DNA from: Candidatus Saccharimonadota bacterium
Lineage (GTDB): Bacteria; Patescibacteriota; Saccharimonadia; Saccharimonadales; UBA4665
DNA: 44,808 bases
NCBI GenBank assembly: GCA_027314885.1
Contig: DAHUZY010000002.1
Location: 1 to 44,808 of the forward strand
Direction of reading: 5' to 3'
Under the pieces are notes generated by a model that was not told the origin of the DNA, searched no databases, and saw nothing but the letters and a program-made list of their open reading frames with translations. Positions 12,056 to 36,588 of this stretch are shown one piece after another. Each line of letters starts with the position of its first letter. Positions within the stretch are counted from its first letter, which is position 1. The position numbers were made by a program, and so were the translations under genes.

Positions 12056-12790
12056 ATGTCCAAGCAATTCTGGGCCGTTATCGTTGTCATCGTCTTAATC
12101 TTTATCGGTATATTTGCGTTCAGTAATAACGGCACCCCCGGAGGAAATAGTAATAACAGCGGCACACCTAGCCAACATATTGAAGGCAAAGGACTGGATC
12201 ATGTGACTTTAGTTGAGTACGGTGACTATGAATGTCCCTACTGCGGTCAGTACTATCCAATTGTGAAACAAGTGGTATCACAGTATTCCAACCAGATTAC
12301 GTTCCAGTTCAGAAACTTCCCTCTGACAAGTATTCACCCGAACGCCTTTGCCGGTGCGCGGGCCGCCGAAGCTGCGTCACTTATGGGCAAGTTCTGGCAA
12401 ATGCACGATCTTCTTTATGAACAGAACGGCATTTACTATAACAGTAACCAAACTGCCAATACCTGGGTAGGTGCCTCTAACCCATTGCCGTATTTTGATA
12501 ACCTCGCCAAACAACTCGGCCTTAATGTCAATAAGTTCAATCAATATTACAATTCCAACCGAGTAGACAACACCATTAACGCCGACATGGCTGCCGGCAA
12601 CAAGCTCGGTGTCAATGCTACGCCGACCTTCTATCTTGACGGAAAAAAGATCAGTGTCGGTGAAAGTGTCGCTAATTTCCAGACTCTCATCAATGCCGCC
12701 ATTGCTCAAAAGACCGGGCACGCAGGTACTAGTTCAACTTCGGCCGGAACTACCAATCAAACTAAAGCCAGCTCGCCATCTAAGCCCTAG
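12056..12790 (+). CDS. DsbA-family thiol:disulfide oxidoreductase, membrane anchored
   Basis: N-terminal signal-anchor, VEYGDYECPYCGQYYPIVKQV with CPYC active site, ATPTFYLDGKKI. Confidence 0.9.
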   Translation: MSKQFWAVIVVIVLIFIGIFAFSNNGTPGGNSNNSGTPSQHIEGKGLDHVTLVEYGDYECPYCGQYYPIVKQVVSQYSNQITFQFRNFPLTSIHPNAFAGARAAEAASLMGKFWQMHDLLYEQNGIYYNSNQTANTWVGASNPLPYFDNLAKQLGLNVNKFNQYYNSNRVDNTINADMAAGNKLGVNATPTFYLDGKKISVGESVANFQTLINAAIAQKTGHAGTSSTSAGTTNQTKASSPSKP

Positions 12791-13391
12791 AAGACTTGAT
12801 ATCTGAAAGGGATACATATAGCCAGTGATTATTGCTGTAGCGTTCTACGCTTTTTAGTATCCCCGAAGCAGAGCGGTTCTGTCTAAGAGCACTGCGTATC
12901 TGACTCGATGACACCATCGGTGCGTAGCTGTCAAAAATGGTAACCTCTTTCGGCACAGCCTGCCAGCTCGCTACAAGCTTTTTGATACCTGCTCGGTCAT
13001 CTTGACCACGAAGACCAATAACAAGTTCGCTGCAGCTCAGTAATGTCCCGGCATTTGGCCACCCCATAAGGCCTGGCACTATATCAGAGCCAAATAGAAA
13101 TGCCAGCTGATTATCTGGTAATTGCTGCTTCAGTCTACTGAGGGTCTTCTTCACCGTAAAGTGTGCGTCGACAAGCTCCAGCACACTGCAGCCCGAATGC
13201 GGCTTGAGTGCTTCACGCAACATGGCAACCCGGTGTGCATAATGTGTAGCCTGAACCTTGGCTTGGGGCCTTCTCTCAGGCAGAAAGTACACGTGGTCAA
13301 GCTTGCAAAACTCCAGAGCCTGGAGTGCAAACGCAACGTGACCGCTATGCACCGGGTCAAAGGTACCGGCGTAGATGCCTACTCTATTCAT
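12780..13391 (-). CDS. nadD: Nicotinate-nucleotide adenylyltransferase
   Basis: GIYAGTFDPVHSGHVAFALQA, SSSQIRSALR. Confidence 0.85.
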   Translation of the reverse strand: MNRVGIYAGTFDPVHSGHVAFALQALEFCKLDHVYFLPERRPQAKVQATHYAHRVAMLREALKPHSGCSVLELVDAHFTVKKTLSRLKQQLPDNQLAFLFGSDIVPGLMGWPNAGTLLSCSELVIGLRGQDDRAGIKKLVASWQAVPKEVTIFDSYAPMVSSSQIRSALRQNRSASGILKSVERYSNNHWLYVSLSDIKSSRA

Positions 13392-13407: not shown

Positions 13408-14637
13408 TTATTTCTTCTTCACCACACAGCCACAACTACCACTTATTTCTTTATCCGTCTCTGTCGCGAGTACATCTTTTTTATGACACTCGGGACATTC
13501 TTTTACAGGATAGGTGCACTTACCGTTTGCGTCCAATGTAGACCTATTGCCGTATCCAAGTAGAGACAATTGCGTGCTTCCCCGCTGCTCATCCTCTGCT
13601 ATAACGGTTGCGCCACAGCCACTGAAAACATCCCCTCTAATGGCAGCGCGTCTACCTTCTCTATAAAGCTCTCTTTCCATATCCCGATAGAAAGCCTGCC
13701 TCACATAGTTCAAATTAATGAGAGTAGATGCCTGCACGTGATCAGCCACCGGCATCAATTCTGTGCCCTTGCTTTGAAGGAATCTTTCAAAACGAGCTTT
13801 CGCCGTTGCTGCGACATTGTAGCGCAATTGTTCAGCTCGGTGAGGATCCCTAAGTCTTATATTACTAAACCAATCGATAAGATCTGTCTGGGCTTTTGAG
13901 AATTCATAGGTGTTAATATGGGCCCTTTCATTTGGTAGACGCATTCCAGCGTGCCAGTGACCACCAAATTGTTCGCTCAGTGACTGGTCGTACGCATCGG
14001 TTAAGTTGCCGACTATTTGTCCTTGCCAGACGGGCGGTATATTCAAGGTAATGCGCTGCCCAAGCAGCTCACCTTCCTGTGGCTGTAGGCCAAAACGATG
14101 GTAGATAGCTTCTAGGGCCTGGCGATTTGATCCGTCAAGACTCCGAGATGTAACCCTAAGTCTGCCATCCGGCTCTTTAGTTATAACCCTCAGCATCGTT
14201 TGTTTGCGAGCAGAGTTATAGCCACCGACGTCTTCACTCGCGTCCATCAGCTCGGACGGAAAATCCGAAACCACTATGATGGTGTTCGCCTGGGCACCTT
14301 CTTCGGTGAGTAGTGCACTTTGGGCAAGGGCCTCCATGTCATCAAGCTCTTCACGCTCCGTCAGACGCCGGCGTAATTCAAAGAGGAGTCCGGGATTTTC
14401 TTCGGTGATTAAACGAGCCTCTTTGATGGCATCGTCAAAAATATCCTCTAGCTTGCCTCCGTCTTCGCTGAGCAGCCCATTCATAGGATCATGGTCATAG
14501 TAAAAGCTCGTGCGCATACTACCATAAAGGGTCTCGGCCAGCCAGGTGGCAGTATCTGTTTTATACCGAAGCTCGTAATTTATTTCGCGTGCTTGATCTA
14601 CTGCTGACAGCTGCTCGGCTGTATTGTTTAGTGACAT
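13408..14637 (-). CDS. Uncharacterised 409-aa protein with C-terminal Cys-rich (zinc-ribbon-like) tail; predicted cobalamin-riboswitch target
   Basis: Long ORF ending ...KCTYPVKECPECHKKDVLATETDKEISGSCGCVVKKK; no family recognised; riboswitch-like leader immediately upstream. Confidence 0.75.
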   Translation of the reverse strand: MSLNNTAEQLSAVDQAREINYELRYKTDTATWLAETLYGSMRTSFYYDHDPMNGLLSEDGGKLEDIFDDAIKEARLITEENPGLLFELRRRLTEREELDDMEALAQSALLTEEGAQANTIIVVSDFPSELMDASEDVGGYNSARKQTMLRVITKEPDGRLRVTSRSLDGSNRQALEAIYHRFGLQPQEGELLGQRITLNIPPVWQGQIVGNLTDAYDQSLSEQFGGHWHAGMRLPNERAHINTYEFSKAQTDLIDWFSNIRLRDPHRAEQLRYNVAATAKARFERFLQSKGTELMPVADHVQASTLINLNYVRQAFYRDMERELYREGRRAAIRGDVFSGCGATVIAEDEQRGSTQLSLLGYGNRSTLDANGKCTYPVKECPECHKKDVLATETDKEISGSCGCVVKKK

Positions 14638-14639
14638 AT

Positions 14640-14668
14640 AAAAACCCCTGCTCTACTGAGCAAGGGTT
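14640..14668 (-). terminator. Attenuator hairpin AACCCTTGCTC-AGTA-GAGCAGGGGTT + UUUUU, also overlapping the Shine-Dalgarno-like AGGGG
   Basis: 11-bp stem (one G.U), 4-nt loop, U-run, 2 nt before ATG at 14637. Confidence 0.85.
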
Positions 14669-14710
14669 GCGACATCATTGTCGATTGTATGCTCTTGCTC
14701 GAGAGACTTG

Positions 14711-14850
14711 TTCTTGCTGTGTCGGACTTGCCCTCAAAAATTGGGCTCACCGTTGCGGCACAGTTCCCGAGTTACACGGGATTCCAGCATTTAGTTATTA
14801 ATTTATATAGCAAAAACCACTCAAAGTGTACCAAGTTAGCTACCTAATAG
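14711..14850 (-). promoter_or_regulatory. Cobalamin (B12) riboswitch-like aptamer; 5' boundary uncertain
   Basis: Minus-strand RNA GCUGGAAUCCCGUGUAACUCGGGAACUGUGCCGCAACGGUGAGCCCAAUUUUUGAGGGCAAGUCCGACACAGC matches the cobalamin riboswitch core: GGAAU, CCCG-UGUAACU-CGGG, ACUGUGCCGCAACGGUGAG, and B12-box AAGUCCGA. Confidence 0.85.
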
Positions 14851-14862
14851 ATATAGTATTAA

Positions 14863-15336
14863 TTACTGCAAGGGTTTGGTTTTTAGCGCGTTCAGTCTGA
14901 CAGCAAAGCTTTGGGCAGCGCCATCGAGACCCAATACCCGCAGTGCGCCGACCAAGGTCGTAAGACGTTCTATGCCGGCCTCTCTCGTTTCCGGCCCGAG
15001 GCTTTCAACTTCATGAAAGACATGTTCAATTTTTTCTATAAGCCACTTTTCTTGCCGAGGGTTTACCTGATTAGTAGTCACCTTTGTGGGCTGGGCAGCA
15101 TGCGCAAGCTCCAGAGAGCGGGCAGAGTGATCACGTTTCTTCAGGTGCCCTCTTTTAATCAGGTTGTTGACGTGGACGGCAACTGTAGCGACTGAATTAT
15201 AGTTAAGGCCGCTCATTATTTCACGATAGCTCGGACTATAGCCGTGTTCATCTATAAAGTTCTGGATGAAGCTGAGCAGTTCGCGCTGCTTCTTGCTTGG
15301 CAGTGATAATTGCTGAGTGGATGGCTTTTCATTCAT
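14863..15336 (-). CDS. LexA-like winged-helix DNA-binding protein lacking the S24 autoprotease domain
   Basis: LPSKKQRELLSFIQNFIDEHGYSPSYREIMSGLNYNSVATVAVHVNNLIKRGHLKK; the remaining C-terminus is only ~80 aa with no Ser/Lys protease motifs. Confidence 0.8.
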   Translation of the reverse strand: MNEKPSTQQLSLPSKKQRELLSFIQNFIDEHGYSPSYREIMSGLNYNSVATVAVHVNNLIKRGHLKKRDHSARSLELAHAAQPTKVTTNQVNPRQEKWLIEKIEHVFHEVESLGPETREAGIERLTTLVGALRVLGLDGAAQSFAVRLNALKTKPLQ

Positions 15337-33172: not shown

Positions 33173-33718
33173 ATGAATTATATGAAGATTAAGTTCAATA
33201 TAGTAGTACTCGTAGCGGTTATCCTGGTTGTTGCAGCAGCTATATATTTATTGTTTGATAAACTTGTACTCACACACTCTAGCACTAAATTACCTCCTAA
33301 TGTAGTGACGAGTACTTCTCCTGCAGCTAATTCTTTAAATAATAAACGTAAATCAAGCTCTTCTCCTGCAGTAACTCTGAATACTGGACCGTCCAAGGGC
33401 TCAGCCCTGACAAACGTTACTCTAGCTATTACACGAGCTTCTGTTGTAGGTAATAGTTTGGAGGTAGGAACTATAATCAATGGAGCCTCGAGTGGAACTT
33501 GTACACTTTCCGCATCTCAGAGTGGTCAAGCAACACTTGTCCGTACGGATAAAGTTGTCACCCAAAATAATAGTTATGTGTGCCCAGTTTTTAGTATTCC
33601 GGTAAGCCAATTTCCCGATCGAGGTAATTGGAATGTCTCTGTTAAGTTGATTGTTAACGGCAGTAGCTATAGCGCAAAGTGGGCAAGCAATCCTGTGCAT
33701 TTATCGGGTAGCTACTGA
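33173..33718 (+). CDS. Exported, N-terminally anchored small protein with Ser/Thr-rich linker and Ig-like C-terminal domain
   Basis: N-terminal TM, low-complexity linker, beta-rich C-terminus with two Cys. TGATG overlap with the next CDS. ATG 33182 is an alternative start. Confidence 0.7.
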   Translation: MNYMKIKFNIVVLVAVILVVAAAIYLLFDKLVLTHSSTKLPPNVVTSTSPAANSLNNKRKSSSSPAVTLNTGPSKGSALTNVTLAITRASVVGNSLEVGTIINGASSGTCTLSASQSGQATLVRTDKVVTQNNSYVCPVFSIPVSQFPDRGNWNVSVKLIVNGSSYSAKWASNPVHLSGSY

Positions 33719-36588
33719 TGTTAAAACGTAGAATATACTCAACCGCACTGTTGGCTTTCATTATATTGTTGGCTCCCACCTTAGGACTATTGCCCACTAA
33801 TTTTTTTGGCAAGCATTCCAGCACTATTGGAAAAGCATACGCTGAAACAACTAACTTTCAGGCTGGGCACATCATTGACGATAATATATTTACAAACAGT
33901 AATGCCTTAAGCGAGGGGCAAATCCAAACCTGGCTAAACGATATGGTAAACAGTGTTGGGGGATGTTACGCTCCTGGCGCTAAATCAACCAATCCGCCAA
34001 ACGGGGCATGTATAAATGAATTTTGTGAAAATACCTCTACTCTCCAAAACAACTTTAGTAGCCCCAATCCTTCTTTATCTTGTCCCCAACAGATAGCTGG
34101 CAGCGTAAGTGCAGCACAAATTATTTATAATGCCGCTCAGACATATGGGATTAATCCTGAAGTTATACTAACTACCCTACAAAAGGAGCAAGGATTGGTA
34201 ACCGACAATTGGCCTTGGTATAGTGAGTATCAATACGCCATGGGCTACTCGTGCCCTGACAGTAATGGCTGCAGCACTACTTATGCAGATTTCTATAAGC
34301 AAGTGGACGGCGCTGCTTGGCAGTTTAGGTATTATTTAAACAACCCTGGGGCGTTTGACTATTGGATAGGTAGCAATACTATTGATTATGCGCCTGGGTG
34401 TGCAGGGAGTACTATTGATATACAGAATGCAGCAACTGCCGCCTTGTACATTTACACCCCTTATCAGCCGGACAGTAATGTACTGGCAAATACGAACCCA
34501 ATAGGCTCCTCGTCTGGACCAGGACCCGCTATCAACGATGGTTGCGCGTCCTATGGTAATAGAAATTTTTGGTGGTACTTTAACACTTGGTTTGGGCCGA
34601 GCGTTGATACAAGCGTGTACCTCGCCGAGGAAACAGGGACCTCAACTTACTACGTTGTCTATGATAATCAAAAACAAGCAATCCCAAGCGCTGATGTCTT
34701 AGACTCCTGGGGCTTAAATGGGCTTCCCGTCTCGAGTCTGGATTCGTCTATATTCAACGCGATACCCACAAACCCTACAGTATTGACTCGGTATGTCGTT
34801 AATACTCAGAATAATCAAGCGTATTTTGCAGATAATGGTAACGTTTATTCCGTTTCTTCCAACGATGCCAGTGTTTGGGGTTTTTCTAACCCGTCACAAA
34901 TATCAACTTCGCTTGTTAATTTTGCTAACTATCAAGGAGAAATAAAACCTTACGTTAGCGAAAGTGGCAGTTCAACATATTACGCAGTTGATAATGGCGC
35001 CTTGCATGCAATAACAAGCAGTACTGCCTACGGGCTTTGGGCTGGTCAAAATAATCCACCAATACAAATTTCTTCTGCCTACTTTAACACGATGCCTCAG
35101 TCGTCAGCAGCCATAAGCAGTCCAGAGTTTACCTATAACAGCGCGAGTTATGTATTATCAGATGGTCAAGTTTTCTCTCTTAGCAGTAATACTGCAAGCT
35201 TGTTGCCATCATCGTGGTCAACTTTATCAATAGGCTCTGGACTCTTTAACACATTTTCGAGCGCCGGGGCTTTACAATATATGGTAAAAGCACAAGGGAG
35301 CTCTACTGTATATTTACTCGATTCGGGAACAAAGCGTGGCATACCAGACTTATTTACATATGGAGCGTTCCAGGCTGATCAAAGTGGGGATACTAGTCTG
35401 GTTTCAAATAACTTTATTAATAGTATACCTGGTGGTAGCGCTATGGAGAGTAATGTAGCTACAATAGGGAGTCAGACATATGTAGTTGATCAGGGATTGC
35501 ACCCCGTGCCTTCCTCGCTAACATCTGCATACAGCCCCATGGCTACAAGCTTATCTACAGCATATGGGTCGTTGCTTCCAAGCGCTTCAAACGCGACTGC
35601 TATAGCTAAATCAACTTCTTCATCGGCTGTTTACTTTTTAGACAATGGATCTAAGCTGCCTTTTAGCAATCCCGCAATGCTAGGTTTAGTGGCTGGAAAA
35701 ACTACCGTTACCTATTTGTCACAAGGGGCTTTAAGTATATTACCCCAAGGATCAGTTATGAGTAACTATGTGACAAACAATGGCTCGGATTATTTGATAG
35801 ATCAGGGCTCTGCCTATGGCATACCGGCCCCAGGAACAGCTAATGCATGGGGGTTGCAAAATCCCGTCTCGTTAAGCTCAACGGCTATTTCAAACTTTCC
35901 TAACGGCGGAAGCCTTTCCCAGTACATTCAAAAGCCAAACGGTCAGTTTTGCTTGATAGATGGTGCCAGCTATTGCGCAGGTAATGCCGCACTACTTACA
36001 ATGTGGAGCTTTGGCAATAAAAATGTTATTAAACCCTCTCAGCAGCTGCTAAACTACTTAAATTTTGACAACCTTTCTCTTTCTCCTTTTGTAAGTAGCC
36101 TGGCAGGCCAGACATATTCGGGAACAATTTTTGCCATGGCAAAAGGACAGTTAATTGGCATCTCTACCATATACAATGGCCTTAACTTAGGGCTGGCTAA
36201 TTACCCAGTAGTTAAGCTTGATAGCTATACAATGAGTTCACTTATGAGCAATAAGGTGTGGCAAGGTTACCTGGCTGAAGACGATAACGGCAACATATGG
36301 GTATTGGATGGCGGGATTAAGCACTCCCTCCCTTCTCAATATCAAAGCGCCTGGGTCGGCTCTAATAGCCCGACCCTACTAGGTAGCGACTTTTTGTCTC
36401 TTTTGAGCACAGGTCAACCCATAAGTAATTCCATTAAGTCTGCACCTAGTCCCACTGTGTTTGGCATTAAGAACAGCAAAGAATATGCAATACCATCTCC
36501 ACAAGTCTATGCCTCCTCTGGGCTTAGTCCTTATGTAATTGTTAATCCTAGTCTTATTTACAGTATTCCATATGCTGGCGTATGGTGA
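33718..36588 (+). CDS. Large secreted surface protein: N-terminal lysozyme/hemagglutinin-like domain plus ~12 degenerate ~50-aa repeats
   Basis: Signal peptide; AAQIIYNAAQTYGINPEVILTTLQKEQGLVT...QYAMGYSCPDSNGC...; repeats of the type (S)STxYxVDNGxxxxIPS... Confidence 0.8.
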   Translation: MLKRRIYSTALLAFIILLAPTLGLLPTNFFGKHSSTIGKAYAETTNFQAGHIIDDNIFTNSNALSEGQIQTWLNDMVNSVGGCYAPGAKSTNPPNGACINEFCENTSTLQNNFSSPNPSLSCPQQIAGSVSAAQIIYNAAQTYGINPEVILTTLQKEQGLVTDNWPWYSEYQYAMGYSCPDSNGCSTTYADFYKQVDGAAWQFRYYLNNPGAFDYWIGSNTIDYAPGCAGSTIDIQNAATAALYIYTPYQPDSNVLANTNPIGSSSGPGPAINDGCASYGNRNFWWYFNTWFGPSVDTSVYLAEETGTSTYYVVYDNQKQAIPSADVLDSWGLNGLPVSSLDSSIFNAIPTNPTVLTRYVVNTQNNQAYFADNGNVYSVSSNDASVWGFSNPSQISTSLVNFANYQGEIKPYVSESGSSTYYAVDNGALHAITSSTAYGLWAGQNNPPIQISSAYFNTMPQSSAAISSPEFTYNSASYVLSDGQVFSLSSNTASLLPSSWSTLSIGSGLFNTFSSAGALQYMVKAQGSSTVYLLDSGTKRGIPDLFTYGAFQADQSGDTSLVSNNFINSIPGGSAMESNVATIGSQTYVVDQGLHPVPSSLTSAYSPMATSLSTAYGSLLPSASNATAIAKSTSSSAVYFLDNGSKLPFSNPAMLGLVAGKTTVTYLSQGALSILPQGSVMSNYVTNNGSDYLIDQGSAYGIPAPGTANAWGLQNPVSLSSTAISNFPNGGSLSQYIQKPNGQFCLIDGASYCAGNAALLTMWSFGNKNVIKPSQQLLNYLNFDNLSLSPFVSSLAGQTYSGTIFAMAKGQLIGISTIYNGLNLGLANYPVVKLDSYTMSSLMSNKVWQGYLAEDDNGNIWVLDGGIKHSLPSQYQSAWVGSNSPTLLGSDFLSLLSTGQPISNSIKSAPSPTVFGIKNSKEYAIPSPQVYASSGLSPYVIVNPSLIYSIPYAGVW
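34605..36585 (+). repeat. Protein-level tandem repeats (~12) in the secreted protein
   Basis: Units include TSTYYVVYDNQKQAIPS, SSTYYAVDNGALHAITS, SSTVYLLDSGTKRGIPD, SSAVYFLDNGSKLPFSN, GSDYLIDQGSAYGIPA, GNIWVLDGGIKHSLPS, SPTVFGIKNSKEYAIPS. Confidence 0.8.

Follow-up and report, generated by a model that had tools for sequence, protein, structure and literature searches.

The leader of the 409-aa ORF in the window, that is the whole stretch of 44,808 nt analysed here, is a real and ordinary cobalamin riboswitch, the protein family under its control and the corresponding regulon being new. Our reading of the locus, to which we give a probability of about 0.55, is that an OFF riboswitch and an NrdR box would together govern an operon that keeps the ribonucleotide reductase NrdJ supplied, with the orphan 409-aa protein taking part in cobamide acquisition or handling. 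The features of the locus are the following:

12780..13391, minus strand: nadD-like nicotinate-nucleotide adenylyltransferase gene, a conserved neighbour 16 nt downstream of the orphan gene
13408..14637, minus strand: gene of the 409-aa orphan protein, the target of the riboswitch; Cys341, Cys381 and Cys402 are family-invariant in the alignment and the tail is zinc-ribbon-like
14643..14668, minus strand: terminator-like 11-bp hairpin AACCCUUGCUC(AGUA)GAGCAGGGGUU followed by a U run, -17.9 kcal/mol
14645..14649, minus strand: likely Shine-Dalgarno sequence AGGGG, which would lie hidden within the hairpin's 3' arm
14658..14664, minus strand: 3' strand of the predicted antiterminator, CUUGCUC, inside the 5' arm of the terminator
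14691..14792, minus strand: aptamer core and P13 according to the model of the relatives (P3, P4, P5, P6, P13), 97.4 bits
14692..14705, minus strand: P13 hairpin CUCU-CGAGCA-AGAG, whose loop can kiss L5
14694..14700, minus strand: 5' strand of the predicted antiterminator, GAGCAAG, overlapping L13/P13 and a perfect 7-bp complement of 14658-14664
14698..14830, minus strand: RF00174 cobalamin aptamer
14722..14729, minus strand: 3' side of the binding core, AAGTCCGA, pairing with the CGG after L5
14752..14760, minus strand: L5 / B12 core TGCCGCAAC, invariant save for a compensated U-A to A-U swap
14825..14830, minus strand: putative -10 element TACACT (TGCTACACTACTA in the relatives), proposed from sequence and conservation
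14844..14859, minus strand: degenerate NrdR-box-like site ATACTATATCTATTAG (ATACTATATCTAGCGT in the relatives), with its 3' half degraded and off consensus
14863-15336, minus strand: ORF with a LexA DNA-binding domain, the conserved upstream neighbour

When the whole window was compared with all Rfam models (cmscan), a single match exceeded its gathering threshold, RF00174 (Cobalamin), with 41.0 bits for a cut-off of 31.5 and an E-value of 4.6e-7. The AdoCbl variants RF01482 and RF01689 are not the best of their clan, RF00174 being its top match; cmscan reports the best match per clan only, and both variants are absent from its output. A search with these three models had been proposed in the first-pass annotation, which described a minus-strand cobalamin core between the LexA-like gene and the 409-aa ORF; the letters that it quoted are present and lie where it placed them, and the Rfam match, the covariation, the conserved synteny and the nature of the other genes under control bear out its assignment of the element to the RF00174 type. 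The conservation of the leader-gene arrangement, a second check that it put forward, was found in named public genomes, the core motif standing directly upstream in 11 of 11 close homologues of the 409-aa ORF. The 97.4-bit match was obtained with a covariance model of the Saccharibacteria relatives that has the window sequence itself among its training rows. In the 5' part of the RF00174 match (P1/P2 of the Rfam model) the pairing is poor and overlaps the putative promoter and its -10 element, so that the aptamer is probably of a compact form. The moderate score and this weak, promoter-overlapping P1/P2 might also be those of a cobalamin-riboswitch look-alike that has lost B12 binding, but with the invariants of the core, the covariation and the presence of B12 genes among the other targets, we find this scarcely credible.

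An alignment of 38 aptamers from the relatives was tested against a drawn structure, and standard pairs occupy 96.6% of its cells, against 81.2% when shuffled. The covariation score reaches 0.443 for a shuffled mean of 0.154, a value attained by none of 500 shuffles, and 127 cells are changed on both sides compared with 36 after shuffling; when the partners are slid by 1-3 columns, the covariation signal drops steeply and is lost. The four-way-junction core by which members of the class are recognised is present, with two-sided changes in P3, P4, P5 and P6, and four of the five pairs of P4 vary on both sides. The helix after L5 has G-C replaced by U-A (CGG/CCG versus CUG/CAG), the CCG/CGG of one RNA being poorly placed there by the alignment, and columns 30 and 93 form a single pair in which A-U is swapped for G-C. 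The stem of P13 covaries, and the three loop-loop pairs between L5 and L13 (UGC/GCA) are invariant across the alignment, so that they carry no information for or against this contact. That the element is a cobalamin aptamer appears, from these comparisons, practically certain.

The GAGCAAG segment of P13/L13 is complementary to the 5' arm of the hairpin, so that P13 with the terminator on one side and the antiterminator on the other would be mutually exclusive. The upstream segment with the GAGCAAG/CUUGCUC pairing folds at -12.7 kcal/mol, and the start codon of the 409-aa gene is at 14637, just past the terminator hairpin. We propose that bound B12 would establish the L5-L13 contact and lock P13, setting free the 5' arm of the terminator hairpin; the hairpin would then form and turn the operon off, and the same hairpin would mask the ribosome-binding site of the 409-aa ORF. 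When B12 is missing, GAGCAAG would pair with the CUUGCUC of the arm, the terminator would fail and the gene would be read. The usual mechanism of kissing-loop cobalamin riboswitches predicts OFF with B12 (PMC9600662), and this direction is very probable here by analogy. The leader resembles the OFF-type RF00174 terminator with an L5-L13 kissing loop of Bacillus subtilis btuF (PMC9600662) in its core GGAA...TGCCGCAAC...AAGTCCGA, in P13 and its loop, and in the terminator hairpin that follows; it differs in that no clear P1/P2 is seen, in that its hairpin also buries the predicted Shine-Dalgarno sequence and reaches directly to the start codon, and in that no known B12 gene is its target. For 53 of 77 relatives, a rough text scan, some of whose picks are spurious, shows a similar succession of purine-rich arm, U run and start codon. 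An automated scan of the P13-arm complementarity gave values above shuffles in 21/71 (median p 0.51), a mixed outcome because the start codon was often mis-picked. The hairpin and the antiterminator pairing are clear in part of the family only, and our reading of the platform is based on the window itself and on the clear examples, not on the automated family scan.

To delimit the regulon, 98 riboswitches were collected and the neighbouring ORFs were gathered by iterative profiles. A member of the orphan family lies downstream of 84 of them, 81 loci coming from the iterative profiles and three (G015, G020, G246), missed by the ORF filter, from the family search. In a sample of 248 genomes drawn from the class, the riboswitch was found in 76 and the orphan (A4) family in 60, and 58 of these 60 carry the riboswitch as well (Fisher p 8e-38). 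The two exceptions are G066, where the match is that of a tail to a protein resembling RadA by eye, and G216, which has an apparent orphan member and no detected riboswitch. The remaining 14 riboswitches precede DUF4430 and DUF6580 (six), DUF4430 with alpha-alpha toroid proteins (three), a class I NrdA (one, in G028), unassigned long ORFs (three) and a probably false hit (one), these assignments having been made partly by Pfam scan and partly by tblastn or by eye. Ten of the 14 thus stand before genes predicted to serve B12 uptake or, in one case, before a class I ribonucleotide reductase. B12 uptake and B12-independent ribonucleotide reductases are the classical targets of cobalamin riboswitches, and the control of B12-related genes that characterises RF00174 is seen in the relatives with DUF4430, DUF6580 and class I NrdA; since the same riboswitch precedes these genes, its ligand should be B12. 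DUF4430 corresponds to the C-terminal domain of transcobalamins (PMC4350170). In other Patescibacteria too, the genes behind RF00174 encode DUF4430/DUF6580-like pairs or orphan proteins whose tails are rich in Cys. The latter were noted at L233:1687-2901, L234:159-1487, L235 and L249, three of them with an [IV]SPP-like motif, and L234 and L235 match the orphan-family profile weakly. At L208:1910-3094, L210:1876-3288 and L240:1740-3152, also in Patescibacteria, an alpha-alpha toroid is combined with DUF4430 or adjoins it behind an RF00174 riboswitch, an arrangement of transcobalamin-like architecture.

Searches of the neighbours by tblastn revealed a conserved order lexA-like gene, riboswitch, X, nadD, in which the content of X is interchangeable. 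X is the orphan at 46 loci with nadD (lexA is there too in 25 of the 46), DUF4430-DUF6580 without the orphan in four genomes (G009, G032, G137 and G237, contig C10), and both together in G013, G029, G162 and G246. No orphan-family match was obtained anywhere in the four genomes whose site holds just the uptake pair, and DUF6580 is absent from most orphan-bearing genomes. The orphan thus seems to take the place of a predicted B12-uptake module, and this interchange at one site is the strongest pointer to its function. The DUF4430 (PF14478)-DUF6580 (PF20221) operons of Saccharibacteria and other Patescibacteria share with the orphan the riboswitch, the site and sometimes the operon itself; their products, however, are secreted or membrane proteins without sequence relationship to the orphan, which itself appears to be cytoplasmic. 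The presence of nadD within a few kb at the 46 orphan loci and at the four displaced loci could suggest that the riboswitch really serves nadD, the orphan being incidental cargo. This is very unlikely in our view, since the terminator/Shine-Dalgarno hairpin is placed at the start codon of the orphan, other riboswitch loci have the orphan without a detected nadD, and nadD is not a known B12 target.

The first-pass annotation had recognised no transport or ribonucleotide reductase motif in the 409-aa protein and gave it no function; the family searches found none either. Searches of Pfam, NCBIfam, PHROGs and PADLOC returned no match for the protein, those of PDB sequences, BFVD and IMG/VR no relative, and neither a transport nor a corrinoid-binding motif can be seen in it. 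Its close homologues are recorded as Candidatus Saccharibacteria or simply as 'bacterium'. The family, from Saccharibacteria, is very divergent; one Cys is invariant, the zinc-ribbon-like tails are interchangeable, and a second protein group is homologous to it (profile comparison, 97.3%, E 2.5e-11). Over 59 aligned sequences the mean column identity is 15%, with only Met1, Glu35, Cys341, Cys381 and Cys402 common to all, Arg90 and Ser124 being nearly invariant. After Cys341 the tail is of several zinc-ribbon-like types, of which A, B and C are each shared by the two largest core clusters; the same tails on different cores suggest that these modules are shuffled. As for the carboxyl end, 15 of 75 complete orphans terminate in -AA (five of them in -LAA), compared with 2 of the 132 ORFs in their neighbourhood, a comparison set that is not independent, and such C-termini (e.g. 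L063, L176, L164, L182) resemble the ssrA/ClpXP degron.

Structure prediction (AlphaFold2) gave a fair model for the whole protein (pLDDT 76.7; best Foldseek match in the PDB E 0.17) and a good one (pLDDT 89.3) for the 210-aa domain of residues 17-226, whose best match is TagF (E 3.8e-3, TM 0.24); neither has a convincing match among the solved structures of the PDB. TagF, longin-like and EagT6-like folds, with TM about 0.2 or less, were rejected. We also set aside an adenosyltransferase, a role that is unnecessary because a CobA/BtuR homologue is already present in 57 of the 60 relatives, including the window genome (G000, contig C48); the PduO-type enzyme is absent from all 60. A phage or defence protein was rejected as no PHROGs, PADLOC, BFVD or IMG/VR relative was found, and a general sorting signal in the C-terminal tail was rejected as each tail-positive genome yields one match only at the sensitivity of that search.

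The divergence of the orphan and the swapping of its tails are unusual for a housekeeping salvage factor and count against our explanation. They would suit an effector or surface-type protein directed at the bacterial host of the epibiont and used when B12 is taken from it. We judge this improbable, as hydropathy indicates neither a signal peptide nor a strongly hydrophobic, membrane-type segment in 58 of the 59 members, though an unrecognised signal might direct export, and as the searches found no toxin, adhesin or secretion-linked family for the orphan. Elsewhere in the window, a long polysaccharide and cell-surface region (17439-40480) encodes a sugar transferase, GlmS, GDP-mannose and RmlD-type enzymes, GtrA, DUF2142 and glycosyltransferases; it includes a 956-aa ORF (33718-36588) whose only match, a weak one, is to EccB of type VII secretion.

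The riboswitch promoters of the relatives carry a conserved palindrome, ATACTATATCTAGCGT, ahead of TGCTACACTACTA. The palindrome fits acaCwAtATaTwGtgt, which we take to be the NrdR-box consensus. Of 96 riboswitch promoters, 47 contain the pattern ACTAYATNTAGYG, for 0.005 expected from shuffling; with a slightly extended pattern, 44 sites were counted in 39 of 60 genomes, about 30 lying at riboswitches and three just ahead of nrdR. Sites of this kind also precede nrdR-nrdJ, where they frequently form pairs with a spacing of about 33 nt; directly upstream of nrdJ no strong NrdR box was found, as would be expected if the operon begins with nrdR. NrdR itself is encoded in 58 of the 60 relatives and in the window genome, and in most of the 60 genomes the canonical protein is accompanied by another, more weakly NrdR-like one of about 140 aa (G000, contig C26, 4645-5043). 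A putative control of the orphan family by NrdR is, on these data, likely, and with the NrdR-box-like site in their promoters the operons of the relatives should be on when both deoxynucleotides and B12 are short.

A large ribonucleotide reductase is found in 57 of the 60 relatives, and the four of the common form that were checked are the vitamin-B12-dependent NrdJ. No other protein with a B12-binding domain exceeded the cut-off, and NrdJ is the only B12-dependent enzyme detected by these searches. In the same 60 genomes, G046 has the class I NrdA only, and BtuR, the riboswitch and any orphan-family match are all absent from it. G055 (98% complete) has the riboswitch, the orphan and BtuR, and no detectable large ribonucleotide reductase. 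In the window genome, nrdR lies at the very end of contig C54, which stops 37 nt after it, and nrdJ is not in the assembly; it was therefore probably lost in an assembly gap. The earlier idea of a B12-responsive factor in a reduced-genome, B12-scavenging lineage holds by inference, given the genome size of 0.93 Mb, the presence of CobA/BtuR and the B12-dependent NrdJ of the relatives.

In Propionibacterium acnes, the class I nrdAB operon combines an nrd-box with a cobalamin riboswitch; in front of nrdRJ the boxes are paired and the riboswitch is lacking (PMC3848588). The Saccharibacteria relatives show the same double control by box and riboswitch and the same separate nrdR-nrdJ operon with boxes and without riboswitch; their payload differs, being the orphan or the uptake pair instead of a class I reductase behind a single nrd-box. 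This parallel, together with the class I nrdA found behind the same riboswitch class in G028, favours the main rival explanation, in which the orphan is a B12-independent backup of NrdJ or a factor for deoxynucleotide salvage or for sparing the reductase. The orphan is nevertheless no recognisable relative of these enzymes: the NrdJ profile aligns to its C-terminal zinc ribbon only (probability 11.6%), profile searches found neither the barrel nor any other ribonucleotide reductase domain, and the orphan coexists with DUF4430-DUF6580 at one site. A backup or sparing function is, all considered, rather doubtful. We prefer an operon that would be on under B12 shortage, in the relatives probably also under dNTP shortage, and whose job would be to keep the AdoCbl-dependent NrdJ supplied. 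In such an operon the orphan would be a cytoplasmic protein of cobamide acquisition or handling, replacing the DUF4430-DUF6580 uptake pair or acting beside it, a role that we put forward tentatively, at somewhat less than even odds.

Saccharibacteria are host-dependent and, to our knowledge, appear to lack B12 synthesis, and they seem to use AdoCbl for DNA precursors. The conserved riboswitch points to a gene turned on under B12 shortage, whose divergent family has no annotation in any library tried, and our literature search found no paper on this riboswitch-orphan system. The locus illustrates clearly how a single regulatory site can carry interchangeable payloads, the uptake pair, the orphan or both, a class I ribonucleotide reductase being under the same riboswitch class elsewhere. 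More speculatively still, a modular, zinc-tailed and previously undescribed superfamily could be the main cobalamin-riboswitch target across Patescibacteria and might form, with NrdR, a circuit responding to B12 and dNTP shortage that sustains ribonucleotide reduction by a novel cobamide-handling or reductase-sparing mechanism. How these epibionts obtain B12 from their neighbours and ration it becomes directly testable.
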